Shown: piece after piece, positions 5,404-49,702 of the stretch
How the letters are laid out: each line of letters opens with the position of its first letter
How positions within the stretch are numbered: the stretch's first letter is position 1
Assembly (NCBI RefSeq): GCF_019947135.1
Contig: NZ_JAGSHT010000016.1
Coordinates: 62,001-126,000 of the forward strand
Origin: Occultella gossypii
Lineage (GTDB): Bacteria > Actinomycetota > Actinomycetes > Actinomycetales > Beutenbergiaceae
DNA: 64,000 nt
Reading direction: 5' to 3'
Position numbers and translations under genes: made by a program
The notes under the pieces: model-generated
Database searches by the model: none
What the model saw: the letters and a program-made list of their open reading frames with translations, nothing else
Told to the model about the DNA's origin: nothing

Positions 5404-6456
5404 TCACCGGGCCGCGGCTGCATGGTCGCGCCCATGGCCGGGGGCAGGCGCCCAGCCCAGCGCCGGGGCAACCTCCCGGGCCGTCAGTTGGATGGACCGC
5501 AGGATGTAGGCGTGCGGCGGGTCGATGGAGTGCACCTGGAACGACAGGTGCGTGGCCCGGGCGAGCGCGGAGTCCGCGCCGAGCGTGGCGATGACGGCGG
5601 CCGGGTCGCCGACATGGGCGTCCGTGGCTGCGATCAGCTCGTCGACCGAGAGGGCGGCCGGGTCCTGGCCGGTGATGGTCCGGACGAAGCCGGCGCCGCG
5701 CAGGCCGGTCTCGGCGAACGCCCGGGCCTGGTCGTGGTCGTCGGCCACGAACAGCGAGCGGGCCACGCTGATCCGCGGGGCCACGCCGCTGGGCAGGTGC
5801 TCGAGGTAGGCGTCGATCAGTTCGTTCTGCACGTCAGCCAGGGACCGTCCGTCCTCGCGCGGCTGGGTACGCGAGAGCATCAGGCCGTGCCCGCGCCGGC
5901 CCGCCTCGATCGCCCAGGGTGCGGAGAACGTGGCGATCCAGAGCCGCTGCGCCAGGGACTGCGCGCCGGGGTAGAGAACCGCGCCCTGGCCAACCTCCTC
6001 GCCGCCCAGCGCGGCCTCGACGGTCGCGAGGTTCGCGGCGAAGATCTCCCGGCGCTCGGCGAAGTCGAGACCGAAGGTGGCGAACGCCGTCGGCGACCCG
6101 CCGGAGGCGAACCCGAGCTCGAGGCGCCCGCCGCTGAGTACGTCGAGCACGACGGCGTCCTCGGCCACCCGCACCGGGGACTCCAGGGCGAGGGTGATCA
6201 CGCCGGTGGTCAGCCGCACCCGGCTGGTGCGTGCGGCCGCCTGGGCCAGGAACACCAATGGCGAGGGCAGACCGCCCTCGTCGCCGTCGAAGTGGTGCTG
6301 CGCCACGGCGACCGCGTCGAAGCCCTCCGTCTCGGCGGTGGTGATCTGCTCCAGGGCGAGCTCGTAGCGCTGCGCGGCCGGAACCTGGTCCAGGACCCGG
6401 GTGAAGAACCCGAGCTGCTTGCGTGTCATGTCCAACCTCGTGTCTTCGATACTCAT
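5404..6456 (-). CDS. FMN-dependent luciferase-like monooxygenase, KPN_01858-like
   Basis: This is a 350-residue bacterial-luciferase-like flavin monooxygenase: an (alpha/beta)8 barrel that uses reduced FMN and O2. Visible signatures are DAVAVAQHHFDGDEGG near residue 50, TGVITLALESPVRVAED near 85-100 and ELGFASGGSP near 113. Length and motifs fit the KPN_01858-type family. The ATG at 6456 overlaps the ABC ATPase stop by 4 bp, so monooxygenase and importer are translationally coupled. The inferred role is oxygenation of the imported compound; organosulfur compounds are typical substrates of such enzymes, but nothing here proves the substrate. Confidence 0.88.
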   Translation of the reverse strand: MSIEDTRLDMTRKQLGFFTRVLDQVPAAQRYELALEQITTAETEGFDAVAVAQHHFDGDEGGLPSPLVFLAQAAARTSRVRLTTGVITLALESPVRVAEDAVVLDVLSGGRLELGFASGGSPTAFATFGLDFAERREIFAANLATVEAALGGEEVGQGAVLYPGAQSLAQRLWIATFSAPWAIEAGRRGHGLMLSRTQPREDGRSLADVQNELIDAYLEHLPSGVAPRISVARSLFVADDHDQARAFAETGLRGAGFVRTITGQDPAALSVDELIAATDAHVGDPAAVIATLGADSALARATHLSFQVHSIDPPHAYILRSIQLTAREVAPALGWAPAPGHGRDHAAAAR

Positions 6457-8177
6457 GCGGATGGCTCCTGCGGCAGCCCGGCCGGGGCGAGCCGCCCCGG
6501 GATGGCCGCCAGGAGCGCGCGGGTGTAGGGCTCGGCCGGATCCGTGAACACCGACTCGGTCAGCCCGCTCTCCACCACCCGGCCCTGGTTCAGGACGGTC
6601 ACGGTGTGCGAGATGTGCCGCACCACCGCCAGGTCGTGGGAGATGAACAGGTAGGTCAGGCCGAGGTCGTCCTGGAGCTGTTCGAGCAGCCGCAGGATCT
6701 GCGCCTGCACACTCACGTCCAGCGCGGAGACCGCCTCGTCCAGGACCAGCAGCTGCGGCTCGAGCACCAGCGCCCGGGCGATCGCGACCCGTTGCCGCTG
6801 GCCACCGGAGAGTTCCGCGGGCCGGCGCGTGGCGAGCCCGGCCGGCAGCGACACCTGATCCAGCAGGGCGGTCACCTTCGCCGCCCGGCCGGCCCGGTCA
6901 CCGAGACCGAAGTTCGTCAGCGGCTCGGCGATGATGGTCGCCACGTCCTGACGCGGGTCGAGGGAACTGAACGGGTTCTGGTAGACCATCTGCAGCACCC
7001 GCCGTAACTGGCGCAACTGCTCCCCGCGGAGCCCGGTGAGCTCCTGCCCGCCGACGGCGATCGACCCCGACGTCGGTGTGTGGAACCCGAGCACCGCCCG
7101 CGCGATCGTGGTCTTGCCCGAGCCGGATTCGCCCACGATGGCGTGCGTGGTGCCCGGCTGCACCGAGAACGAGACACCGTCGACGGCACGCAGCGGGTCC
7201 CGGCCACGGCCCAGGGAGAACTCCTGCACCAGGTCACGCACGACGAGGGTGGGCCGGGCGCCCGCGCCGTGGGCGACGATCCGTTCGGCCTCGGCCAAGG
7301 TCCGCCGGCCCGCGGTGGCCAGGGCCGGGGCGTCGGCGAGCAGCTGCCGGGTGTAGGCCGACGTGGGCGCGGTGAGCACCTCGTCCTTCGGACCCTGCTC
7401 CTGGACCCGGCCATCCTTGAGGACCACGACGGACGTCGCCCGGTCCGCTGCGACCGCCAGGTCGTGGGTGACCAGCAGGATCGCGGTGCCGAGTTCGGCG
7501 CGCAGTTCATCCAGCAGGTCGAGGATGTTGCGCTGCACGGTCACGTCCAGGGCGGAGGTGGCCTCGTCGGCGATGATCAGTTCCGGGTCGAGCGCGATCG
7601 CGGAAGCGATCAGAACCCGCTGCTTCATGCCCCCGGACAGTTCGTGCGGGTACTGGCGCGCGCGCAGTTGCGGGTCGGGGATGCCGACCCGCTCGAGGAG
7701 CTCGACGACCCGGGCCCGGATAGCCCGCTTGTCACCCCACCGGTGGATCCGGAGCACCTCGCCGAGGCTGTCCCCGATGCGCTTGACCGGGTTCAGGGAG
7801 TTGTTCGGGTCCTGTGGCACCAGCCCGATCCGGCTCCCCCGGACCGCCTGCAGCTGTTTGGGCGACCACGCGGTGATGTCCGTCCCGTTGAGCAGGATCT
7901 GCCCGGCGGTGACCGATCCGTTCTCGGCCAGCAACCCGATCACGGCCTGCGCGGTGGTGGTCTTGCCGGAGCCGGACTCCCCCACCACGGCCACGACCTC
8001 ACCGGGGTGGATGCGCAACGACACCTCGTGCACGACGGTGGTCGACTCGTGGCCGCTGGAGTAGGCCACCGAGAGGTCACGGACCTCCAGGACGGGCGCT
8101 GCGCCGTCGGGCCCGTCCTGCCCGACGGCGGAACGCGCCCCGGCGAGGGCGCGCACCGGTGCGCTCGCGCCGCTCAT
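6453..8177 (-). CDS. Double-ATPase subunit of a peptide/nickel-type ABC importer
   Basis: This 574-residue protein carries two complete ABC ATPase domains, equivalent to DppD and DppF fused. The first has Walker A GESGSGKTT near residue 64, signature LSGGMKQR near 173 and Walker B LIIADE. The second repeats the set with GESGSGKTT near 353, LSGGQRQR near 462 and LLVLDE. The ATG at 8177 overlaps the permease stop by 4 bp; a longer upstream frame exists but would run antisense-like through the permease. It energises import by the two permeases and the lipoprotein encoded upstream in the same operon. Confidence 0.93.
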   Translation of the reverse strand: MSGASAPVRALAGARSAVGQDGPDGAAPVLEVRDLSVAYSSGHESTTVVHEVSLRIHPGEVVAVVGESGSGKTTTAQAVIGLLAENGSVTAGQILLNGTDITAWSPKQLQAVRGSRIGLVPQDPNNSLNPVKRIGDSLGEVLRIHRWGDKRAIRARVVELLERVGIPDPQLRARQYPHELSGGMKQRVLIASAIALDPELIIADEATSALDVTVQRNILDLLDELRAELGTAILLVTHDLAVAADRATSVVVLKDGRVQEQGPKDEVLTAPTSAYTRQLLADAPALATAGRRTLAEAERIVAHGAGARPTLVVRDLVQEFSLGRGRDPLRAVDGVSFSVQPGTTHAIVGESGSGKTTIARAVLGFHTPTSGSIAVGGQELTGLRGEQLRQLRRVLQMVYQNPFSSLDPRQDVATIIAEPLTNFGLGDRAGRAAKVTALLDQVSLPAGLATRRPAELSGGQRQRVAIARALVLEPQLLVLDEAVSALDVSVQAQILRLLEQLQDDLGLTYLFISHDLAVVRHISHTVTVLNQGRVVESGLTESVFTDPAEPYTRALLAAIPGRLAPAGLPQEPSA

Positions 8178-9094
8178 GCCCGACCCCGTCGCGCGATGTC
8201 GGCGGAGATCCGGTTCGCGGAGAGCACCACAGCCACGACGACGAGGCCGGGCAGGGTGGTCAGCCACCAGGCGGTCGCCACGTAGTTGCGACCCTCGGCG
8301 ATCATCAGTCCCCACTCGGGGGTGGGCGGCGGTGCGCCGTAGCCGAGGAAGCCGAGGGTGGAGATGGCCAGGATCGCGGTCCCGAACTGCAGCGCGGCGA
8401 GAGCGATCACGGCGGTCAGGGAGTTCGGCAGCACGTGCCTGCGGACCACGTTGAAGAAGGTTCCACCGGAGGCGAACGCGGCCTCCACGTAGTCGCTGCG
8501 CCGTACCCGGACCACCTCCGACCGGGACAGCCGGGCGAACGCGGCCACCGAGGCTATCCCGACCGCGACCGCGGCCTGGACGGTGCCGAAGCCGAGCAGG
8601 ATGATCACGCTCAGCGAGAGCAACAGGGTGGGCACGGCCAGCAGCACGTCGACCACCCGCATCAGCACGTCGTCGACGAATCCGCCGACCGAACCCGCGA
8701 TCACTCCGATCCCGGTGCCCAGCACCAGGCCGACGCTCACCGCGACCAGGGCGCCGGACAGGGAGTGCACGGAGCCGTACACCACCCGGGTGAACATGTC
8801 CCGGCCGGTGGCGTCGGTGCCGAACAGATGCTCGCCGCTGGGGCCCTGCAGCGCGGCCGCGGCGTCGCCGGCGGTCGGGCCGTAGGAGGTGAACAGGCCC
8901 GGCAGCGCGGCCCAGGCCACCACGATCGCGATGACCAGCCACGGGATCACCTCGGTGACGCGGATCCGGCCGCCGCGGCGCCGGCGGGGCTGAGCGTGCG
9001 GCGTCGCCGAACCCGGCAGCGCGGGCGTACCCGGCACGGGCTCGGCCACCTGCGGCAACATCGGGGTCGCCTCGAGGAGTCGGGACTCGGTCAT
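8174..9094 (-). CDS. ABC importer permease, DppC-like
   Basis: This 306-residue inner-membrane permease has a cytoplasmic Arg-rich N-terminus, a first membrane helix near residue 48 (VIPWLVIAIVVAWAALPGLF) and the DppC-type segment LFGTDATGRDMFTRVVYGS. The BPD-transporter coupling loop (EAAFASGGTFFNVVRRHVLPN) lies near residue 205-225. It overlaps its neighbours by 4 bp on both sides, which indicates obligate co-translation. It forms the translocation channel together with the DppB-like permease. Confidence 0.92.
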   Translation of the reverse strand: MTESRLLEATPMLPQVAEPVPGTPALPGSATPHAQPRRRRGGRIRVTEVIPWLVIAIVVAWAALPGLFTSYGPTAGDAAAALQGPSGEHLFGTDATGRDMFTRVVYGSVHSLSGALVAVSVGLVLGTGIGVIAGSVGGFVDDVLMRVVDVLLAVPTLLLSLSVIILLGFGTVQAAVAVGIASVAAFARLSRSEVVRVRRSDYVEAAFASGGTFFNVVRRHVLPNSLTAVIALAALQFGTAILAISTLGFLGYGAPPPTPEWGLMIAEGRNYVATAWWLTTLPGLVVVAVVLSANRISADIARRGRA

Positions 9095-10167
9095 CGGGAT
9101 GCCCCTACCTGGCGCGCCAGCCGCGGATCGAGCTTCGGGTAGATCAGGTCCACGGCGAGATTGATCAGGACGAACGCGGTAGCGGCGAGCAGCACCACCG
9201 CCTGCAGCACCGGGGTGTCCTGGTGGGCCACCGCCTGCTCGGTGATCCGGCCGATGCCCGAGCGCCCGAACACGGTCTCGGTGACCACCGCCCCTCCGAT
9301 CAGTTCACCGAAGAGGATGCCCGCCATGGTCAGGGTCGGCAGGGTCGCGTTCTTGAGCACGTTTCGCCAGAGCACCCAGGACGGCGAGGCCCCCTTGGCC
9401 TGGACCACCCGCACGAACGGCTGGGTGTAGACCTCGTCGATGCTGCGGGTGAGGATCTGCGCGATCGGGGCCGCGATCGGCACCGCGAGGGTCAGGACCG
9501 GCAGGATCAGCCCCTCGACCGGACCCGGGTTGATCACGGCGACCCAGCCGAGCCGGAACGAGAAGGACTGGATCAGCACGATGCCGAGCCAGAACACCGG
9601 CACCGAGACGAACAGCGACGGCACCGAGCGCAGTGCCGTGCGGATCCAAGCGAAGGAGGCGGAGGCGCTCAGGAACGCGATGGCGAACGCGAGCAGTACG
9701 GCCAGGACGAACCCCGCCGCCGCCAGCACGAGCGTCTGCGGGAACGCCTCGGCGATCAGCTGCTGCACCGGGGTGCCGGACTGCACCGAGTACCCGAAGT
9801 CGCCCCGGACGAAGCCGGCGAAGGTGTGCAGGTACTGGATCAGCACCGGGTCGTCCACGCCGTAGGAGGCCCGGATGTCGGCGATCTGTTCCGGGGACAG
9901 CCCGAGCTCGGGGTTCTCGAACCGGATCATGATCGCGTCCCCGGGCAGCGCCTGGAGCAGCACGAACGCCGCGGTGAACGCGATCCACAGGACGATCAGG
10001 GCCTGCCCGAGCCGGCGCGGCACGTAGCCGGTGAGCAGCGCGACCACGCGACCGCCGCCCGTGGGCGGCGTGGAACGCCCGACGGCGCCACTGCCCCGGG
10101 TGCGCGGCGCACCCGGGGTGGGTGCGCCGTCGGGCACCCGGACGTCGGTGGGGGCCTCAGCGGTCAA
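9091..10167 (-). CDS. ABC importer permease, DppB-like
   Basis: This 358-residue permease has the N-terminal DppB signature (YVPRRLGQALIVLWIAF, then LLQALPGDAIMIRF) and the coupling loop near VVQAKGASPSWVLWRNVLKN. The assigned start is a TTG at 10167 that overlaps the substrate-binding-protein stop by 11 bp; about 45 residues precede the first helix, so an internal GTG could be the real start. It belongs to the same operon and pairs with the DppC-like permease. Confidence 0.9.
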   Translation of the reverse strand: MTAEAPTDVRVPDGAPTPGAPRTRGSGAVGRSTPPTGGGRVVALLTGYVPRRLGQALIVLWIAFTAAFVLLQALPGDAIMIRFENPELGLSPEQIADIRASYGVDDPVLIQYLHTFAGFVRGDFGYSVQSGTPVQQLIAEAFPQTLVLAAAGFVLAVLLAFAIAFLSASASFAWIRTALRSVPSLFVSVPVFWLGIVLIQSFSFRLGWVAVINPGPVEGLILPVLTLAVPIAAPIAQILTRSIDEVYTQPFVRVVQAKGASPSWVLWRNVLKNATLPTLTMAGILFGELIGGAVVTETVFGRSGIGRITEQAVAHQDTPVLQAVVLLAATAFVLINLAVDLIYPKLDPRLARQVGASR

Positions 10168-11818
10168 GCCACACCTCGTAGAAACTCGGGCGGCCGACCG
10201 ACTCGAAGGAGAATCCCGCCACGTCGGTCTGGGAGCCGAACACCTGCGGCTCCTCGAACAGCGGGATCACGTAGGCGTTCTCGGCCAGGTAGGTCTGCAC
10301 CGCCTGGGAGTTCGCGATCCGGGTGTCGCCGTCGGCCTCTGAGGCGACCGCCTCGAGCAGGGCCTCCAGCTCCGGGTCGGCGATCGTGTCCGTGGCCGGG
10401 TCCCGGTTCAGCAGGGTGTTGCGGTTCGTGGAGTAGTACTGGCTCTTGATGACGTCGAGGTCGGCCCGGCCCACCATCGAGTGGTAGATCTGCACCTGGC
10501 CGGCGTCCTGGATGGCCTCGGTGTAGGTGCCGGCGTCCGCCCGCAGGATCTGCAGGTCCACGCCGATCTCGGCGAGCTGCTGACTGATCAGCGTGAGCGC
10601 CTCGAACGAGCGTGGCTGCGGGGCGGCCTCGTTGACCACGAGGGTCAGGCTCTGGCCGTCCTTCTCACGGATCCCGTCGGCGCCGAGCGTCCAGCCGGCC
10701 TCATCGAGGAGGTCGGCGGCCCGCTCGGGGTCGAATGCGTAGTAGTCCTCGAGGTTCTCGTAGCCGAGCGCGGTGCTGCTCAGCGAGGAGGTGGCCAGCG
10801 GGTAGTTCTCGGTGTAGATGGTGTCCACCACCTCCTGGCGGTCGATGCCGGCGATGAGCGCCTGCCGCACCCGGATGTCGGACAGGATCGGGTTCGTGAA
10901 CCGCAGGCTCAGGGAGTTGTTCACGCCGCGGGTCTGCGGCGCGTAGATCTCCAGTCCGGCGCCCGCGACCTGGGCCTCGTCCTGCGCCTCGACGTACCGG
11001 ATCACGTCGGCCTGTCCGGACGTCAGGGCGCCCACCCGGACGCTGTCCTCCGGGGTGACCGTGACCTGCACCTCGTCCACGTACGCACGGCCCTGGTTCT
11101 CGCGAGAAGCCGGCGCCCAGGCGTAGTCCTCGCGAGCACCGAGCGTGACACTCGTGCCGATCTCCTCGGCGGTGATCACGAACGGTCCCGAGCCGATCAC
11201 GTTCTGGCCGTTGCCGGGCCCGAAGTCCTCGAACGCTCCCTCCAGTGTGCTCGCCGAGACCAGGCCGGAGTTGATCGTGGACGTGGCCTGCAGGAAACCC
11301 GGGGCCGGGGCGGAGAAGTTGAAGACCACCGTGTCCGCGTCCACCACCTCGCTGGAGGCGTAGTTGTTCACCGCCTCGGAGACGGTTAGCGCCCGGTCAG
11401 GGTCGCCCAGGCCGTAGAGGTCGAAGTTCGCGGCGACCACCTCGGCGTCCAGCGCTGAGCCGTCGGAGAACGTGACATCGCTGCGCAGGTCGAACGTGTA
11501 CTGCGTCGCGTCCTCGTTGACCTCCCAGTCGGTGGCGATCCACGGTTCGAACTCGAGCGTCTCCGGGTTCTGGTACACGAGCCGGTCGGTGATGTTGTTG
11601 ACCAGCCCGCCGTTCGGGTAGAAGCCCGCTGCCGGCGGGTAGAGGGTGTCATGCGGCTGGTGCTCGAGGTAGACGAGGGTCCCGCCCGTGACCGGGTCGC
11701 CGCTGGGCTCGCCGTTCCCGCTGCTGTCCCCGCCGTTGGATCCGCACGCGGTGAGAACCAGAGCGAGTGTGGCGCCGAACGCCGCTGCGCCCTGCCATCC
11801 GCGGTGGGTTCTGCTCAT
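10157..11818 (-). CDS. Extracellular solute-binding lipoprotein (family 5), KPN_01854-like
   Basis: This 553-residue protein starts with a lipoprotein signal peptide ending in the lipobox LTAC (cysteine near residue 26), followed by a Gly/Ser linker. The rest is a family 5 (peptide/nickel/opine) binding protein: TDRLVYQNPETLEFEPWIAT, FDLRSDVTFSDGS and the typical RVRQALIAGIDRQ motif. It is the first gene of the operon, preceded by GAGAGGA and by a structured leader. With the luciferase-like and AhpD-like genes it matches the conserved KPN_01854/KPN_01858/Avi_7169/Avi_7170 gene set, whose ligand is not known. Confidence 0.92.
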   Translation of the reverse strand: MSRTHRGWQGAAAFGATLALVLTACGSNGGDSSGNGEPSGDPVTGGTLVYLEHQPHDTLYPPAAGFYPNGGLVNNITDRLVYQNPETLEFEPWIATDWEVNEDATQYTFDLRSDVTFSDGSALDAEVVAANFDLYGLGDPDRALTVSEAVNNYASSEVVDADTVVFNFSAPAPGFLQATSTINSGLVSASTLEGAFEDFGPGNGQNVIGSGPFVITAEEIGTSVTLGAREDYAWAPASRENQGRAYVDEVQVTVTPEDSVRVGALTSGQADVIRYVEAQDEAQVAGAGLEIYAPQTRGVNNSLSLRFTNPILSDIRVRQALIAGIDRQEVVDTIYTENYPLATSSLSSTALGYENLEDYYAFDPERAADLLDEAGWTLGADGIREKDGQSLTLVVNEAAPQPRSFEALTLISQQLAEIGVDLQILRADAGTYTEAIQDAGQVQIYHSMVGRADLDVIKSQYYSTNRNTLLNRDPATDTIADPELEALLEAVASEADGDTRIANSQAVQTYLAENAYVIPLFEEPQVFGSQTDVAGFSFESVGRPSFYEVWLDR

Positions 11819-11940
11819 CGGGGGGTTCCTCTCGTGGCCTGCCTGGGCAGGGGCAGTGCACCCGAATCACGGGTGTCACCTGCGGGACTGTGGGTCGCTC
11901 CAGAGTCGCGCTCGTCCGACCGACTCTCAATGTGGTCCCC
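11819..11940 (-). promoter_or_regulatory. Structured leader/promoter region of the ABC-luciferase operon
   Basis: Upstream of the solute-binding protein, three inverted repeats lie in a row: AGAGTCG/CGACTCT (arms 11902-11908 and 11921-11927, 12-nt spacer), CACCCG/CGGGTG (11859-11864 and 11870-11875, 5-nt loop) and CCTGCC/GGCAGG (11838-11851, 2-nt loop), the last just before the GAGAGGA ribosome site. The outer repeat may be a protein operator; the inner two would form hairpins in the leader RNA. I could not match the leader to a riboswitch class I know. Confidence 0.4.
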
Positions 11941-11988
11941 GTGAGTCTCAGATGATGGACAGCGCGCCTGGGCGGCCCCCTCGCCGGC

Positions 11989-13179
11989 TCAGCCCTCGAC
12001 CAACGGCCCCGGCGGCAGCTTGCGCACCTTGCGCCGTCGGCTGCGCCGGGCGGGGATCATCGAACGCATCTCCTCCAGCCTGCCGAAGCACAGCAGCCGG
12101 TCCTCGGCCTCGAGCTCGGTGCTGCGCCGCGGGTTCGGGATCACCGAGGTCCCGCGGTGCAGCGTCAGCACGGTGATGTCACGTTCCTCGAGGCCGGAGT
12201 CGCCGATGGTGCGTCCCACCAGGTCGGCGCCGGTATGCACGAGCAGCTCCGCGACGCCGTACCCGGTGGAGACGGTCAGCCGCTGCCGCACGTCGATCTC
12301 CGGGAACGCGACCTGGTCGGCGATGTGGTCGATGATCGCGCCGGCCACGTCCAGGTTCGTGGCGGTCTCGATGCCCTCAAGGCCCGGGGAGGAGTTCACC
12401 TCCATCACGAGCGGCCCGTCGGCCCCTTCGAGCATGTCGACACCGGCGACCCGCAGCCCCATGATCTGCGCCGAACGGACCGCCAGCTCCTCGAACTCCT
12501 TGTCTAGCGTGACGGGCTCGACCGAGCCGCCGCGGTGCACGTTCGAACGGAACTCGTCCCCGTGCGCGATCCGGCGCATCGCGGCGACCACGCGGTCGCC
12601 GACCACGAGGGCCCGCACGTCCCGACCCTTGCTCTCCACCACGAAGCTCTGGATGAGCACGTTCTGCTTGGTGCTGTGCAGGGTCTCGATGATCGCCTCG
12701 GCGACCTTGACCCCGGGAGCGAGGATCACGCCGATGCCCTGGGTGCCCTCGAGCAGCTTGATCACCACGGGCGCCCCGCCGACCCGCTCGATCGCGGGCC
12801 GCACGTCCGCGCGGTTGCGCACGAACGCCGTCGCCGGCATGCCGATCTGGTGCCGCGCGAGGATCTGGCTCGCCCGGAGCTTGTCCCGCGCGTTCGAGAT
12901 CCCGTTCGCCGTGTTCGGCGTGTACACATCCATCTGCTCGAACTGCCGGACGACGGCGGTGCCGAAGTAGGTGATCGAGTTGCCGATCCTGGGCAGGATC
13001 GCGTCGTAGTCCGAGATCGGCTTGCCACGGAACTGCAGGTCCGGCTCCGGGCCGGACAGGTCGATGGCGAACCGGAGGGTGTCCAGGACCTTGACCTGGT
13101 GCCCACGGTCAGCCGCAGCGGTCCGCAGCCGTTGGGTGGAGTACGCACGGGGCGCGCGCGAGAGGATCGCCAGTTTCAT
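11989..13179 (-). CDS. RimK-family ATP-grasp ligase with C-terminal RCK_C-like domain
   Basis: This 396-residue protein begins at the ATG at 13179 (MKLAILSRAPRAYST). An N-terminal RimK pre-ATP-grasp region is followed by an ATP-grasp domain (residues about 95-290: KLLEGTQGIGV, the catalytic-loop region RALVVGDRVVAAMRR, metal-binding EVNSSPGLEGIE). After it comes a roughly 70-residue TrkA-C/RCK_C-like domain (GRTIGDSGLEERDITVLTLHRG). RimK enzymes add glutamate to protein or small-molecule carboxyl ends; the RCK_C tail suggests ligand sensing. It is divergent from a RimB-type protease gene with no space between them. The alternative product (a gamma-glutamyl peptide) cannot be excluded. Confidence 0.9.
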   Translation of the reverse strand: MKLAILSRAPRAYSTQRLRTAAADRGHQVKVLDTLRFAIDLSGPEPDLQFRGKPISDYDAILPRIGNSITYFGTAVVRQFEQMDVYTPNTANGISNARDKLRASQILARHQIGMPATAFVRNRADVRPAIERVGGAPVVIKLLEGTQGIGVILAPGVKVAEAIIETLHSTKQNVLIQSFVVESKGRDVRALVVGDRVVAAMRRIAHGDEFRSNVHRGGSVEPVTLDKEFEELAVRSAQIMGLRVAGVDMLEGADGPLVMEVNSSPGLEGIETATNLDVAGAIIDHIADQVAFPEIDVRQRLTVSTGYGVAELLVHTGADLVGRTIGDSGLEERDITVLTLHRGTSVIPNPRRSTELEAEDRLLCFGRLEEMRSMIPARRSRRRKVRKLPPGPLVEG

Positions 13180-13204
13180 GCTGTTCGCCTGCGAGGATGA
13201 GGAG

Positions 13205-13684
13205 GTGACCGGGCCGACCCATCTAAGCACCCCGACGGGGTGGCGGGAGTGGGTCGCGATGCCCGGGATCGGCGTGCCGTGGGTCAAGGCGAAGATCGAC
13301 ACCGGGGCCCGCTCGAGCGCCCTGCACGCCTTCGGCGTGACCGAGTTCGAGCGCGACGGCGGCCCGTGGGTCTCGTTCATCGTGCACCCTTTGCAGAACT
13401 CGGCCCGGGACGAGGTGGAGGTCACCCTCCCCGTGCACGACCGCCGGCTCGTGCGCAGTTCCTCGGGCCACGCCCAGCGCCGGATCGTGGTGCTCCTGGA
13501 CCTGGTGGTCGCCGCCCGCCCGATCACCGCCGAGGTGACCCTGAGCAACCGGGACCGGATGGGCTTCCGAATGCTGATCGGGCGTGAGGCGCTGCGCCAG
13601 GGCTTCCTGGTCGACCCCGGCCGCTCCTACCTCGGCCCGCGCCCGCCGAAGGCGATCCGGCGCCGCCACCGGGCGACCGGGTAG
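13205..13684 (+). CDS. RimB-type retropepsin-like protease (ATP-dependent zinc protease family)
   Basis: This small protein (159 residues from GTG 13205; 168 from ATG 13178) has the family motif KIDTGARSSALHA with the D-T-G of aspartic retropepsins, and LIGREALRQGFLVDPGRSYL at the C-terminus. Such proteins are annotated as ATP-dependent zinc proteases and in Pseudomonas a homologue (RimB) works with RimK to reverse or tune glutamylation. GTG 13205 has GAGGA at 7-nt spacing. The alternative ATG at 13178 would share the CATG with the start codon of the opposite ligase gene. Pairing with RimK strongly supports the role. Confidence 0.87.
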   Translation: MTGPTHLSTPTGWREWVAMPGIGVPWVKAKIDTGARSSALHAFGVTEFERDGGPWVSFIVHPLQNSARDEVEVTLPVHDRRLVRSSSGHAQRRIVVLLDLVVAARPITAEVTLSNRDRMGFRMLIGREALRQGFLVDPGRSYLGPRPPKAIRRRHRATG

Positions 13685-13715
13685 CGGCCCTCTCGCGGCC
13701 ACCTTGTCCGTGGGA

Positions 13716-13750
13716 TGCGTCACTGACCCGGGTGGCGGGTCAGTGACGCA
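13716..13750. terminator. Perfect 15-bp hairpin
   Basis: TGCGTCACTGACCCG (13716-13730) and its exact reverse complement (13736-13750) flank a 5-nt loop. It lies 31 bp after the protease stop and 87 bp before the phosphoglucomutase start. There is no T-run on either side, as is common for actinobacterial terminators. A dimeric-regulator operator for the downstream sugar operon is the alternative. Confidence 0.6.
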
Positions 13751-13837
13751 ACGCGCAGGAACAAGCCGATTTCGCCATCTCGCGACCTGCCGAGCGCGTT
13801 TGGCCATATCTGCGCGGCGAGGGCTAGCGTCGTTGTC

Positions 13838-45041: not shown

Positions 45042-45344
45042 GTGTATCTAACCCCCTCCGACACGGAGAAGCTGCTGCTGAGCGTCGCGGGCATGATCGC
45101 CCGGGACCGCCGGGAGCGTGGCGTCCGTCTGAACTACCCCGAGTCGGTGGCGCTGCTGTCTTGCTGGGTCCTCGAGCGGGCCCGCGAGGGCGCAATGGTG
45201 GCCGACCTCATGAACGACGGCCGGCACGTACTCAGCCGGGACGAGGTCATGGAGGGGGTCGCCGAGATGATCTCCGACGTCCAGGTCGAGGCCACCTTTC
45301 CGGACGGGCGCAAGCTGGTCACGATCACGGAGCCGATCCAATGA
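45042..45344 (+). CDS. ureA: Urease gamma subunit
   Basis: This 100-residue protein matches the urease gamma subunit in full: an N-terminal [40 protein letters not shown] near residue 30-50 and a C-terminal [20 protein letters not shown]. It forms the scaffold of the (alpha-beta-gamma)3 trimer. GTG start with GAGAGG at 7-nt spacing. First gene of ureABCFGD; it overlaps ureB by 4 bp. Confidence 0.95.
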
Positions 45345-45826
45345 TCCCCGGGGAGGTCCGCATCGGGGGCGCGCCGGTCGAGTGCAACGCCGGACGAGCC
45401 CGCCGTTCCATGGTCGTGGTCAATGACGGCGGCCGGCCGATCCAGATCGGCTCGCACCTGCACCTACCCGATGCGAACCCCGCGCTGAGTTTCGACCGGG
45501 AGCTCACGCAGGGCTTCCGCCTGGACATCCCGGCGGGGACGTCGGTGCGGCTGGAACCCGGCGTGAGCCGAACCGTCGACATCGTCGCACTCGGGGGCCG
45601 GGGCCACGTCCCCGGCCTGCAAGTACGTGGCATCGACAGTGATCTGCCCACCCACCGGCGCGAACCCAAGCGGGTGGTGCCGTTCGGCACACCCGGCACG
45701 CACGTCGAGGATCCACACCGGGCGGGGGCGGTGCGCGCCCGGGTCAGCGGCGAACCGGCCGACCGGTCAACGGCACCACCTGGAGCGGTGGAACACGAGC
45801 CGACACCCGAGCAGGAGACACCGTGA
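45341..45826 (+). CDS. ureB: Urease beta subunit, divergent and C-terminally extended
   Basis: This 161-residue protein has the beta-subunit opening [18 protein letters not shown] and the core [16 protein letters not shown]. The normally conserved SHYHFFEVN segment reads SHLHLPDAN here, so two aromatic residues and the Glu are changed. About 55 extra residues (Pro/Arg/Glu-rich) follow the usual end near residue 105. It overlaps ureC by 4 bp (GTGA). It should still pack on the alpha subunit, but the altered segment sits at a subunit contact. Confidence 0.9.
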
Positions 45827-47532
45827 GCCGGGTCGACCGCCGTGAGTACGTCCAGATGTACGGACCGTCCGTGGGGGACCAGGTGCGCCTCGGCGACACC
45901 GACCTCTGGCTGGAGATCGAGCAGGATCTCAGTGGTGGCGGCGACGAGTCGACCTTCGGTGGTGGGAAGACCATCCGCGAGTCGATGGGGCAGGGCACCA
46001 CCACCCGCGACCAGGGCGCCCTCGACCTCGTCATCACGAACGTCGTGGTGCTGGACCACTGGGGCATCGTGCGCGCGGACGTCGGCGTCAGAGACGGTCG
46101 CATCGTCGCCGTCGGCAAGTCCGGCAACCCGGACGTGATGGACGGCGTGCACCCGGACCTGCAGATCGGCCCGAGCACCGACGTGATCGCGGGCGAGGGC
46201 AAGATCCTGACCGCGGGCGCCATCGACACCCACGTGCACTTCCTCAGCGAGATCGAGATGCTCGAGGCGCTCGCAACCGGCACCACCACGGTGATGGGGG
46301 GCGGCACGGGACCGACCGAGGGGTCCAAGGCCACCACCGTCACCCCGGGCGCCTGGTCCCTGGCGATGATGCACCGCGCGCTCGACCACATCCCGCTGAA
46401 CGTCATCCTGTTCGGCAAGGGCAGCACCGTGAGCGCGGAGGCGCTCCGGCAGGAAGCGCTGGCCGGGGCCGGCGGCTACAAGGTCCACGAGGACTGGGGT
46501 GCCACCCCGGCCGCGATCGATGCTGCCCTGCGTGCTGCCGACGAGTTCGGACTGCAGGTGGCGTTGCACGCCGACAGCCTGAACGAGACCGGCTACGTCC
46601 AGCACACGATGGACGCCATCGCGGGGCGCGGGATCCACGTGTTCCACTCCGAGGGCGCAGGCGGCGGGCACGCTCCCGACATCATCGTGGTGGCGAGTGA
46701 GCCGAACGTGCTGCCGGCCTCGACGAATCCGACGTTGCCGCACACCGTCAACACGGTCGCGGAGCACCTGGACATGCTGATGGTGGTCCACCACCTGAAC
46801 CCCCGAGTGCCTGAGGACCTGGCATTCGCCGAGTCGCGGATCCGCGGGACCACGATGGCGGCCGAGGACATCCTGCAGGACATGGGTGCCATCTCGATCA
46901 CGTCCTCGGATGCCCAGGCCATGGGCCGCATCGGCGAACTGGTGTGCCGTACCTGGCAGGTGGCGCACGTGATGAAGGCGCAGCGGGGTCCGTTGAGCTC
47001 GTCCCTACCGGCCGACAACGAGCGCGCCCGCCGGTACGTCGCGAAGTACACGATCTGCCCGGCCGTGGCGCACGGCATCGATCACGAGGTCGGGTCGATC
47101 GAGGCCGGCAAGCTGGCCGACCTGGTGTTGTGGGACCCGGCCTTCTTCGGCATCCGGCCGTCGGCGGTGATCAAGGGCGGTGCCATCGTCTCCGCCCCGC
47201 TCGGTGACCCCAACGGGGCGGTCCCGATGCCGCAACCGGTGTTCCTGCGACCCACCCTGCCCGGTGCGCCCGGTTCGGCGCCGCACCTGGCCACCAGCTT
47301 CGTGTCACCGGCGGCGATCGAGGACGGCCTCGCCGACCGCCTGGGCCTGCGCCGTCGCCTGACGGCGGTGCGCCCCACCCGCGACGTGACGAAGGCGGAC
47401 ATGCCCAACAACCAGGCACTGCCGGCGCTGGAGGTGGACCCGGAGACGTTCGCGATCACGATCGACGGTGACCTGGTCCGGCCGAACCCGGTGGACGTGG
47501 TGCCGCTCGCGCAGCGCTACCTGATGTTCTGA
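45823..47532 (+). CDS. ureC: Urease alpha (catalytic) subunit with altered active-site flap
   Basis: This 569-residue protein is full length. Nickel ligands are in place: H137 and H139 (THVHF), the carbamylation Lys K220 (GYKVHEDWG), H222, H249, H275 and D363 (SSDAQAMGR); numbering is 3 above Klebsiella urease. The catalytic His follows in VHHL. The mobile-flap Cys (C319 in Klebsiella) is Val322 here, SSDSQ is SSDAQ, and the usual PQQ after the HxH site is replaced (FLSEIEM). It hydrolyses urea in ordinary ureases; the changes mark a divergent clade whose rate or substrate may differ. GTG start overlapping ureB. Confidence 0.92.
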
Positions 47533-47539
47533 GCGCGCG

Positions 47540-48208
47540 ATGACCGCTGAGCTGGGAGTCCTGCTGCTCGCCGACGCACGGTTGCCGACCGGCGGGCACG
47601 CGCATTCCGGTGGCCTGGAACCGGCCCTGGCCGCGGGACTGACCGCCGCCCAGGTGCCCGACTACATCACCACCCGGCTGCGCACGGTGGGCCTGGTCGA
47701 GGCCGCCGCCGCGGTCCTGGCGCTGCGGTCGGCTCGGACCGACCCGGACCGCCTCGGTGCCGTGCAGGAGGCGCTCACGGCGCGGACCCCGAGCGCCCCG
47801 CAGCGCCACGCGTCCGGCCTGTTGGGCCGGGGTCTGGTCCGGCTGGCGGAGCGCCTCTGGCCGGAGAACCCGGCGGTACGGGCGCTCGGCGGCCTGGGTC
47901 TGGCCCCACTGCGCCCGGTTGTGCTCGGTGTGGTGGCGGCCGCCGTCGGGATGGACGAAGTGCAGGTGGCCCGCGCCAGCCTGTACGACGACGCGCAGAC
48001 GGTGGCGGCCGCGGCCCTCAAGCTGCTGCCGGTGGACCCCACCGAGGCGACCCGGTGGCTGTTGCGGGCCGAGCCCACCATGACCGACATCATCACCAGG
48101 GCGATCAGGGTCACCTGCCCGGACGATCTCCCCGCCGTCACCGCGCCACTGATCGAACAGTGGTCACTCGAGCACCATGGACGAACCAGGAGGATTTTCG
48201 TTGCCTGA
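47540..48208 (+). CDS. ureF: Urease accessory protein UreF
   Basis: This 222-residue helical protein has the UreF opening [23 protein letters not shown] and [18 protein letters not shown] in the second half. UreF bridges UreD and UreG on the apo-urease and gates nickel delivery. It lies 7 bp after ureC; its end overlaps the ureG start by 8 bp. Confidence 0.9.
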
Positions 48209-48971
48209 GCACACCCACACCCATGAGTCCCCGGAGCACACCCCGCACGGCCGGGCCCGGGACACCCGGCCCCTGCGGCTCGGCGTGGCCGGCCCGGTCG
48301 GCACCGGCAAGAGCACGCTGATCGCCACGCTGTGCCGGCAGTTGTCCGGCCGGCTGCAGATCGCCGTGGTCACCAACGACATCTACACCGACGAGGACGC
48401 CCGCCTGCTCCGCGCGGCCGGGGTGCTGCCCGTCGAGCGGATCCGGGCGGTGGAGACCGGGGCCTGCCCACACACGGCCATCCGGGACGACGTGACGCCG
48501 AACCTGATCGCCGTCGAGGACCTGGAACGGGAGTTCGCACCGCTGGACCTGGTCATCGTGGAGAGTGGCGGGGACAACCTGACCGCCACGTTCAGCCCCG
48601 CGCTCGTGGATGCCCAGATCTTCTGCCTGGACGTCGCCGGCGGCGGGGACGTGGCTCGAAAGGGCGGCCCGGGCATCGAGCGGGCTGATCTGCTGATCAT
48701 CAACAAGACCGATCTCGCCCCGTACGTCGAGGTCGATGTGGAGCAGATGGTCAGCGATGCCGGCGCCGTGCGGGACGGCCTGCCCGTGCTGGCACTCAGC
48801 CACCACGATCCCGCCTCGGTGGACCGGCTCTGCGCGTGGGTGGAGGCGGTGGTGGCCGAGTACCGGCAGGGCGGCCACGTCGCCCGTGATCCCGGCCCGA
48901 TGGCCCCGCACTTCCACGCCGAGGACGAGCACACACACGCCCATGACGAACATGAGCACGTGCACGGGTGA
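48201..48971 (+). CDS. ureG: Urease accessory GTPase UreG with His-rich ends
   Basis: This 256-residue SIMIBI GTPase has the P-loop GPVGTGKST, the metal-site motif CPH in [20 protein letters not shown] (Walker B region) and NKTD for guanine. The TTG at 48201 has a perfect AGGAGG at 7-nt spacing and is chosen over ATG 48177. Both ends are His-rich ([16 protein letters not shown] and [20 protein letters not shown]); since the operon has no ureE, these tails may take over nickel storage and transfer. Confidence 0.93.
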
Positions 48972-49702
48972 GCCGACCGGCACCGGCGCGGATCGCCGTC
49001 GACGTCGCTGACGGGAGGGCACGCATCGGCCGGCTCGATGCCAGCCAGTTCCTCCGGCCCCGGCTGCTCGGCGTGCGGGGCCGCCGGGCGGAGGTCGCGC
49101 TGATCGGAGCGTGCGCGATGCTGCTGGCCGGCGACGACCTGCGGATCGACATCGACGTCGGCCCCGGCGCCCACCTGGTGCTGGTCGAGCCCTCCGGGAC
49201 CGTGGCCTACAACGCCCGCGGTGGCGACGCGCACTGGAGCGCCCAGGTCCGGTTGGCCGACGGCGCCCGCCTCACCTGGGCAGCGGCGCCGTTCGTGCTG
49301 GCGCAGGGCGCGCACGTGCACCGGCACACCGACCTCGACCTGGCCCTGGGTGCGCGGGCACTGCTGCGGGAGGTGCTGGTGTTCGGACGCAGCGGCGAGG
49401 TCGGCGGAGCGCTGCGCGCGGCCCTGCGCGCGAGTTACGACGGCACCCCGCTCCTCGTCGAGGACCTGGACCTGCACGGCGGTGACCACGGGCTGCGCAC
49501 GGCCCCCGGTGTGCTCGGCGAAGCGCGCGTGCTCGCCACCCTGGCAGTGCTGGGGCTGACGCCCGATGAGGTCACGGATCGGCATACGACCACGCTCGCC
49601 GGCCCCGGCGCACTGGTGCGGGCGATCGCGAGCGAGGCTCACCTGGCCGAGGATGCTCTCGCCGCCACCTGGCAGCGCTGGCGCACCGCCGTGGAACTCT
49701 GA
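48968..49702 (+). CDS. ureD: Urease accessory protein UreD
   Basis: This 244-residue protein matches the UreD/UreH family: [31 protein letters not shown]-type sequence (from about residue 53) and [25 protein letters not shown] after it. UreD binds apo-urease and channels nickel from UreG through UreF. GTG start overlapping ureG by 4 bp; last gene of the operon. It is shorter than many UreD proteins. Confidence 0.9.

Follow-up and report, generated by a model that had tools for sequence, protein, structure and literature searches.

A urease operon with valine in place of the flap cysteine in Occultella gossypii, and recurrent cysteine-less flaps among actinobacterial ureases

Organization of the urease operon

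The window, that is, the whole stretch of 64,000 nucleotides analysed here, encodes a complete six-gene urease operon, ureABCFGD, at 45042-49702 of the forward strand, in which the genes overlap or almost touch (Table 1), ureB overlapping both ureA and ureC by a few bases. The ureC gene starts with GTG and encodes a full-length alpha subunit without internal stop. The beta subunit scored above the cut-off of one family model (Table 1) and under that of another, NF009682 (119.3, cut-off 129). The neighbouring genes encode a PucR-type regulator, an FAD-dependent oxidoreductase, an esterase-like alpha/beta hydrolase and a sugar-binding regulator, none of which would suggest a special substrate. 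The initial annotation had proposed looking for a second canonical urease; none was found in the genome of this organism, where the UreC of the window was the only one detected. The NicO nickel permease (PF03824) was searched for in the same genome and was not found.

Table 1. Coordinates of the urease genes and of the features discussed in the text
Feature	Position	Strand	Product or description	Evidence
ureA	45042..45344	+	urease gamma subunit, 100 aa	NCBIfam NF009712, 148.7 bits (cut-off 123)
ureB	45341..45826	+	urease beta subunit, 161 aa	Pfam PF00699 over residues 3-94; TIGR00192, 103.3 bits (cut-off 90.3)
UreB C-terminal tail	45626..45823	+	66 aa, typical of the urease clade of the window	
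ureC	45823..47532	+	urease alpha subunit, 569 aa	TIGR01792, NF009685, alignment to 1ejw
First HxH nickel ligands and clade E-x-E-M sequence	46231..46260	+	UreC residues 137-146	row comparison
Codon 322	46786..46788	+	GTC (Val), replaces flap cysteine (Klebsiella Cys319)	
ureF	47540..48208	+	urease accessory protein	Pfam PF01730, 85.2 bits (cut-off 23.3); no NCBIfam match
ureG	48177..48971	+	nickel-insertion GTPase, His-rich ends	TIGR00101, 232.6 bits (cut-off 204.2)
ureD	48968..49702	+	urease accessory protein	Pfam PF01774, 97.6 bits (cut-off 27); no NCBIfam match

Active site and family assignment of UreC

The flap cysteine is usually taken as a hallmark of urease and as a target of inhibitors. 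The UreC of the window aligned end to end with UreC of Klebsiella aerogenes (1ejw_C, E 1.5e-222) and scored above the cut-offs of the TIGR01792 equivalog (834.9 bits, cut-off 680) and of NF009685 (1007.3 bits, cut-off 907). We compared 18 active-site and flap residues, a list that includes all ten residues enclosing the Klebsiella active site according to a review of urease (PMC7433671), and 17 of them were identical at an offset of +3. These were the nickel ligands (Klebsiella H134, H136, H246, H272 and D360, which are H137, H139, H249, H275 and D363 in the window), the carbamylated lysine (K217, here K220), the pocket residues A167, H219, E220, D221, G277, H320, R336, A363 and M364 (Klebsiella numbers) and, in the same numbering, H312 and H321. 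The sole difference was Klebsiella Cys319, which is Val322 in the window, so that nine of the ten listed pocket residues are unchanged and the flap cysteine is the exception. Both the constant offset of 3 for nickel ligands and lysine and the replacement of the flap cysteine by valine had been read by the initial annotation, and alignment and residue-by-residue check agree with it on both. The protein has two cysteines, at 375 and 412, and none at the flap position. Its residue numbers are the same as those used for Sporosarcina pasteurii urease (Lys220, Cys322, His323, Arg339) in PMC7433671, and the catalytic flap His323 and its clamp Asp224 and Arg339 are all present.

The equivalog score, nickel ligands, carbamylated lysine, flap histidine and clamp place the protein among nickel urease alpha subunits, the flap cysteine being the one tested membership feature that it lacks. 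Although conserved in most ureases, this cysteine is not treated here as defining for the family; it is also absent from the Cys319 variants of Klebsiella urease and, judging by a title, from the urease of Staphylococcus xylosus. The Klebsiella structures (1ejw, 1fwa, 1fwh) share with the window the nickel ligands, the carbamylated lysine, the flap pair His320-His321 and the other pocket residues. In Klebsiella, however, the cysteine is the natural residue, whereas valine is natural in the window; the Klebsiella variant structures carry alanine (1fwa) or tyrosine (1fwh), and valine did not occur among the five alignments shown. The S. xylosus enzyme has threonine for the active-site cysteine according to the title of Jose, Schafer and Kaltwasser (1994), cited in PMC4266091; going by that title it is likewise a natural urease without the cysteine, but with threonine rather than valine and from Staphylococcus rather than Actinobacteria. 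The dN/dS values of the window ureC against nine relatives ranged from 0.11 to 0.20, which indicates that the gene is under purifying selection.

Two further features had been listed as oddities, namely SSDAQ in place of SSDSQ and a rewritten stretch after the first HxH. Among 86 UreC rows, taken from the window, from five relatives of its family and from the best 80 of 300 confirmed named loci, SSDAQ was found in 81, of which 74 have cysteine at the flap, and the five rows without it were L028, L029, L030, L031 and L038; it is therefore ordinary among actinobacterial relatives. The stretch after HxH is highly variable among Cys-bearing actinobacterial ureases (ICPQ, LSPSQ, LMPET and others), so that its being rewritten is not special, while what holds of that remark is that the form E-x-E-[MIV] is typical of the clade of the window (L002/L211 has R-x-E-M). 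The E-x-E-M stretch is not strictly tied to loss of the cysteine, since L017, L023, L025 and L026 combine E-x-E-M with Cys.

Distribution and gene content of the urease clade

The closest named relatives of the window UreC, at 81-89% identity, come from Nocardioides, Ornithinimicrobium, Janibacter, Pseudonocardia, Candidatus Stackebrandtia, Rhodococcus, Saccharopolyspora, Nocardiopsis and Mycolicibacter. Members of this clade (at least 81% identity) occurred in 5 of 40 genomes of the genus of G406, which is Nocardiopsis since L028 and L029 fall by position and sequence in two of these genomes, and in 3 of 147 genomes of the genus of G068. Among three congeners of the organism studied here, another urease (68% identity) was present in two and none in the third. 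This patchiness suggests that the urease operon of the clade has been transferred horizontally. The plasmid search gave best matches of 73% for the window UreC and 64% for L215, with no close named relative among them.

The order ureA, B, C, F, G, D was found in 19 of the 21 clade loci examined (a set without L020 and L022), the remaining two, L014 and L017, ending inside the operon; some accessory genes of L210 and L212 match in pieces. A single full-length UreC was present in all eight other clade genomes with valine or alanine at the flap that were reached via named loci, and also in two Cys-bearing clade genomes (L017, L023), while two Saccharopolyspora clade genomes have a second UreC at 44-45% identity. 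Next to ureD, four Nocardiopsis loci and G002 carry genes similar to those of nickel/peptide-type ABC transporters, which run against the urease operon; such genes were noted at L028, L211, L212, L213 and L214. Their best matches included NikD, NikE and Opp models (nickel or oligopeptide), all below the curated cut-offs, and in L214 (10199-11980) the permease and ATPase parts are joined in one protein.

Most members of the clade also share a conserved extension of UreB of about 60 residues past its usual end. Its [FY]GTP motif was found in 20 of 24 rows labelled as clade (absent or altered in L027, L030, L209 and L210), in 10 more rows that belong to the window or duplicate clade loci, and in 0 of 186 other counted rows; the count covered rows with a UreB match reaching at least residue 85 and with the end of the tail inside the DNA read. 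The tail is independent of the flap state, as it is present in Cys rows such as L023 and L025 and missing from the Val row L027. Tails on the corresponding subunit of Helicobacter contribute to higher assembly, and by this analogy the UreB tail may have a role in assembly.

Flap residues inside and outside the clade

We compared 25 distinct clade rows (23 above 81% identity, with L209 and L210 at 68-73%) with 149 other rows above 60% identity, taking one match per locus, so that second copies in a locus were left out, and without the loci of genera g21 and g22. Position 322 was Cys in 11, Val in 9 and Ala in 5 of the clade rows, whereas outside the clade it was Cys in 147 and Ala in 2. The second flap histidine, at 324, was likewise variable inside the clade (His 18, Ala 7) and invariant outside it (149 of 149), and positions 320, 362, 373 and 465, among others, were more variable inside than outside. 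Substitutions that separate the Val and Ala rows from the Cys rows were few and weak (85, 354, 490, 568); the search for companion changes of the cysteine loss returned only such weak ones.

The Cys-bearing ureases of the clade, from Pseudonocardia parietis (L023, 88%), Saccharopolyspora (L025, L026) and Candidatus Stackebrandtia (L017), share the operon, the E-x-E-M stretch and the UreB tail with the window but keep Cys322. The group of Rhodococcus erythropolis (L019-L022, L024) belongs to the same clade at 83-84% identity and has the UreB tail, yet it keeps Cys322 with alanine at 324, and each of its five genomes holds a second UreC at 55% identity. The same Cys-His-Ala flap beside a second UreC in the genome was seen for L209 and L210.

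Recurrent loss of the flap cysteine

The initial annotation had proposed mapping the flap position onto a UreC phylogeny, and the result speaks against a single loss. A careful tree of 37 rows (the 25 clade rows with a chosen outgroup of 12 Cys-bearing rows), computed under LG+G4 with the flap columns excluded, required at least five changes between Cys and non-Cys. Monophyly of the 14 non-Cys rows was rejected (AU p 0.0026), and monophyly of the nine Val rows less firmly so (p 0.0216). As the analysis used one substitution model, its groups were named with earlier trees already known, and several forks near the window are unresolved, the number of changes is uncertain and reversions to Cys are possible; the sequences nonetheless point to several changes from Cys to Val or Ala within the clade. 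A wider quick tree of 86 rows, composed of the non-CHH rows except L202-L206, five selected Cys rows and a random sample of 40 CHH rows from which L142, L148 and L207 were left out, required at least seven changes between Cys and non-Cys. Seven were also obtained with an earlier quick tree, which had 81 rows, L202-L206 among them.

The 86-row tree set apart, with good support, a lineage of 16 rows with alanine throughout, from Nocardiopsis, Streptomyces and the genera g21, g22 and g413 (L055b, L061b, L157, L158, L215-L219, L222-L226, L228 and L230), and a further pair formed by L227 (Ala-His-His) and L221 (Ala-His-Asn). The 16-row lineage resembles the window in combining a Cys-less flap with an intact nickel site, and its one tested member, L215, passes the urease cut-offs. 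It differs in having alanine instead of valine, in being only 58-63% identical to the window and in its position on the tree. Its accessory genes usually follow the order F, D, G, some of them not being found in the DNA read.

The frequency of Cys-less flaps was surveyed with a DNA pattern for the flap, a kind of pattern that can miss divergent ureases, in 396 genomes of the order. It gave 96 matches, one of which (G328) was not urease-like, and the other 95 comprised 78 Cys, 15 Ala and 2 Val flaps, the latter from the window and G002. The 17 of 95 urease-like motifs without Cys reflect few groups, as alanine was concentrated in genus g21 (9 of the 15, and 9 of the 11 matches in g21) and genus g22 (four, out of 13 matches there). 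Applied to 396 genomes of the phylum, the pattern matched 61 times; 57 of these matches had a His-His flap, namely 56 with Cys and one with Val, that of the window. With a related pattern, 12 matches were obtained from 13 genomes of genus g61, and every one of them had Cys. A flap without cysteine is thus not unique to the window, as alanine or valine recurs in Actinobacteria and, by its title, threonine is reported in S. xylosus.

In 57 genomes of genus g21, ureases of the 57-60% identity type (the Ala lineage and L221) and of the 67-70% type never co-occurred, where co-occurrence was scored by identity class and the flap residue was read in part of the 57 genomes. In Streptomyces sp. B-S-A6 and B-S-A8 (L055, 9380-18731, and L061, 9380-18742), two complete urease operons stand tail to tail, one with a Cys flap and the other with an Ala flap. 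G1446 has two equal-scoring UreC copies in opposite orientation about 1.4 kb apart (C1:470542-475380), while a third copy lies broken into pieces on C20. The Ala-type UreC of L220 (3471-5172, G1255) is split over two frames by a frameshift either in the gene or in the assembly.

Predicted function and inhibitor response

Laboratory Klebsiella urease with Cys319Ala is reported to keep good or high activity. According to PMC7433671, urea bound to the two nickel ions contacts Ala170, Gly280, Ala366 and His222, after which the flap closes and locks His323 between Asp224 and Arg339. The same review places the flap Cys319 too far from the amide to serve as general acid, describes it as implicated in the steric orientation of the neighbouring His320 and as a possible acceptor of a hydrogen bond, and attributes inhibition by chemicals that target it to improper closure of the flap. 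A Cys-less urease that is active and escapes flap-thiol inhibition, as considered in the initial annotation, would plausibly be consistent with this account.

Our preferred reading, to which we assign a probability of roughly 0.83, is that ureABCFGD encodes a nickel urease performing standard urea hydrolysis, in which the flap cysteine alone has been replaced by valine. UreD, UreF and UreG would load two nickel ions onto His137, His139, His249, His275, Asp363 and the carbamylated Lys220, urea would be placed among Ala170, His222, Gly280 and Ala366, and on closure of the flap His323, clamped by Asp224 and Arg339, would take part in catalysis. Val322 would fill a similar space and take over the steric role of the cysteine without offering a thiol. 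Hydrolysis of urea with the closed-flap His323 is expected since all active-site residues except the cysteine are present, and urea is the likely substrate because none of the remaining nine listed pocket residues has changed. The rate or pH profile may be altered, and inhibition through a modified flap cysteine would be lost, so that insensitivity to thiol-directed inhibitors at the flap is plausible. These expectations of activity, kinetics and inhibitor response draw on sequence, operon, conserved residues, purifying selection and recurrence. The preferred reading is further favoured by the single UreC in this genome and in the eight other Val or Ala clade genomes, by the transporter-like genes beside ureD in related loci and by the existence of Klebsiella structures that lack Cys319. 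The beta-branched side chain of valine might hamper flap closure, and this, like the missing NicO permease, counts against the preferred reading. The enzyme is a real natural flap variant, probably functional, and not a new kind of enzyme.

The surprise lies in the repeated loss and in the share of Cys-less ureases in some Actinobacteria more than in the single gene of the window. Ureases of at least 81% identity that carry Cys, Val or Ala at the flap, or Ala at the second flap histidine, form a natural series with which the long-debated role of the flap cysteine becomes testable in natural enzymes. If the predicted insensitivity holds, inhibitors directed at the cysteine would miss part of the ureolytic actinobacteria.

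No urease phenotype of the named strains with Val or Ala flaps emerged from the partly accessible literature searched, and activity or inhibitor data for the window urease or its clade relatives were not found there either. PMC10350862 and PMC9363871 report a urease-positive Nocardiopsis isolate and negative results for N. rosea, N. gilva and N. rhodophaea, strains that are not among the loci of known flap here. The literature searched, likewise available in part, yielded no survey of natural urease flap variants, the S. xylosus title being the only item to emerge.

Alternative explanations

Nearly neutral drift, in which the clade can dispense with the flap cysteine and position 322 changes between Cys, Ala and Val almost without consequence for fitness, is a serious contender to which we give somewhat less than even odds. 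It competes over the reason for the change and not over the function, and it is compatible with a working valine-flap urease. The several changes within 25 close rows, the variability of 320 and 324 in the clade where both are almost fixed outside, and the scarcity and weakness of companion substitutions speak for it; free drift would, however, be expected to bring in more residue types than the three observed, Ala and Val codons each lie two base changes from a Cys codon, and the separate 16-row lineage has kept alanine throughout.

A tentative proposal, less likely than not, is that replacement of the flap cysteine by alanine or valine arose repeatedly in Actinobacteria as an adaptation that evades thiol-reactive inhibitors and oxidants, among them quinones, catechols and soft metals as well as nitrosative or oxidative stress. 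With an operon that would move between genera, a substantial share of actinobacterial ureases would then be intrinsically insensitive to Cys-directed inhibitors, in the clade of the window together with a derived UreB tail that perhaps alters assembly.

The initial annotation had considered that the enzyme might be tuned to another amide or ureide. The changes in the flap and in the stretch after HxH would fit such a shift, as would the divergent UreC-like proteins with rewritten flaps that adjoin other hydrolases and transporters, but nine of ten listed pocket residues are unchanged, the accessory operon is standard, the neighbouring genes are unrelated and no second UreC was found in the genome to take over urea hydrolysis, so that this idea is not supported and appears improbable. 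That the protein is a dead or moonlighting urease retained for some other reason fits the missing NicO permease and is slightly less probable still, as the catalytic residues, the accessory genes and purifying selection are all in place. A sequencing or assembly error masking a cysteine is hardly conceivable and was rejected, since the GTC codon at 322 is two substitutions away from any Cys codon and valine recurs there in assemblies of other genera with different codons (GTC, GTG or GTT), which makes a simple base-call error unlikely.

Divergent UreC-like proteins

Five loci (L202 at 6011-8256 in the genome of Saccharopolyspora dendranthemae, L204 at 6354-13755 in G910, L203, L205 and L206) encode UreC-like proteins of 42-44% identity that keep the nickel ligands and the flap histidine, with VHG, VHR or VHK as flap and glycine for Ala366. 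L202 and L204, the two tested, scored below the TIGR01792 equivalog cut-off and above that of the broader NF009686. No match to ureD, ureF or ureG was obtained in the 12-14 kb around these loci. All five have UreB-type partners and all except L203 UreA-type partners as well. L202 adjoins an Amidohydro_3 protein and an MFS transporter, and in L204 the neighbours of a UreA-UreB fusion are a hydrolase of the histone-deacetylase type and an ABC transporter whose binding protein is of the sugar type. These proteins are candidates for urease-derived hydrolases with another substrate.
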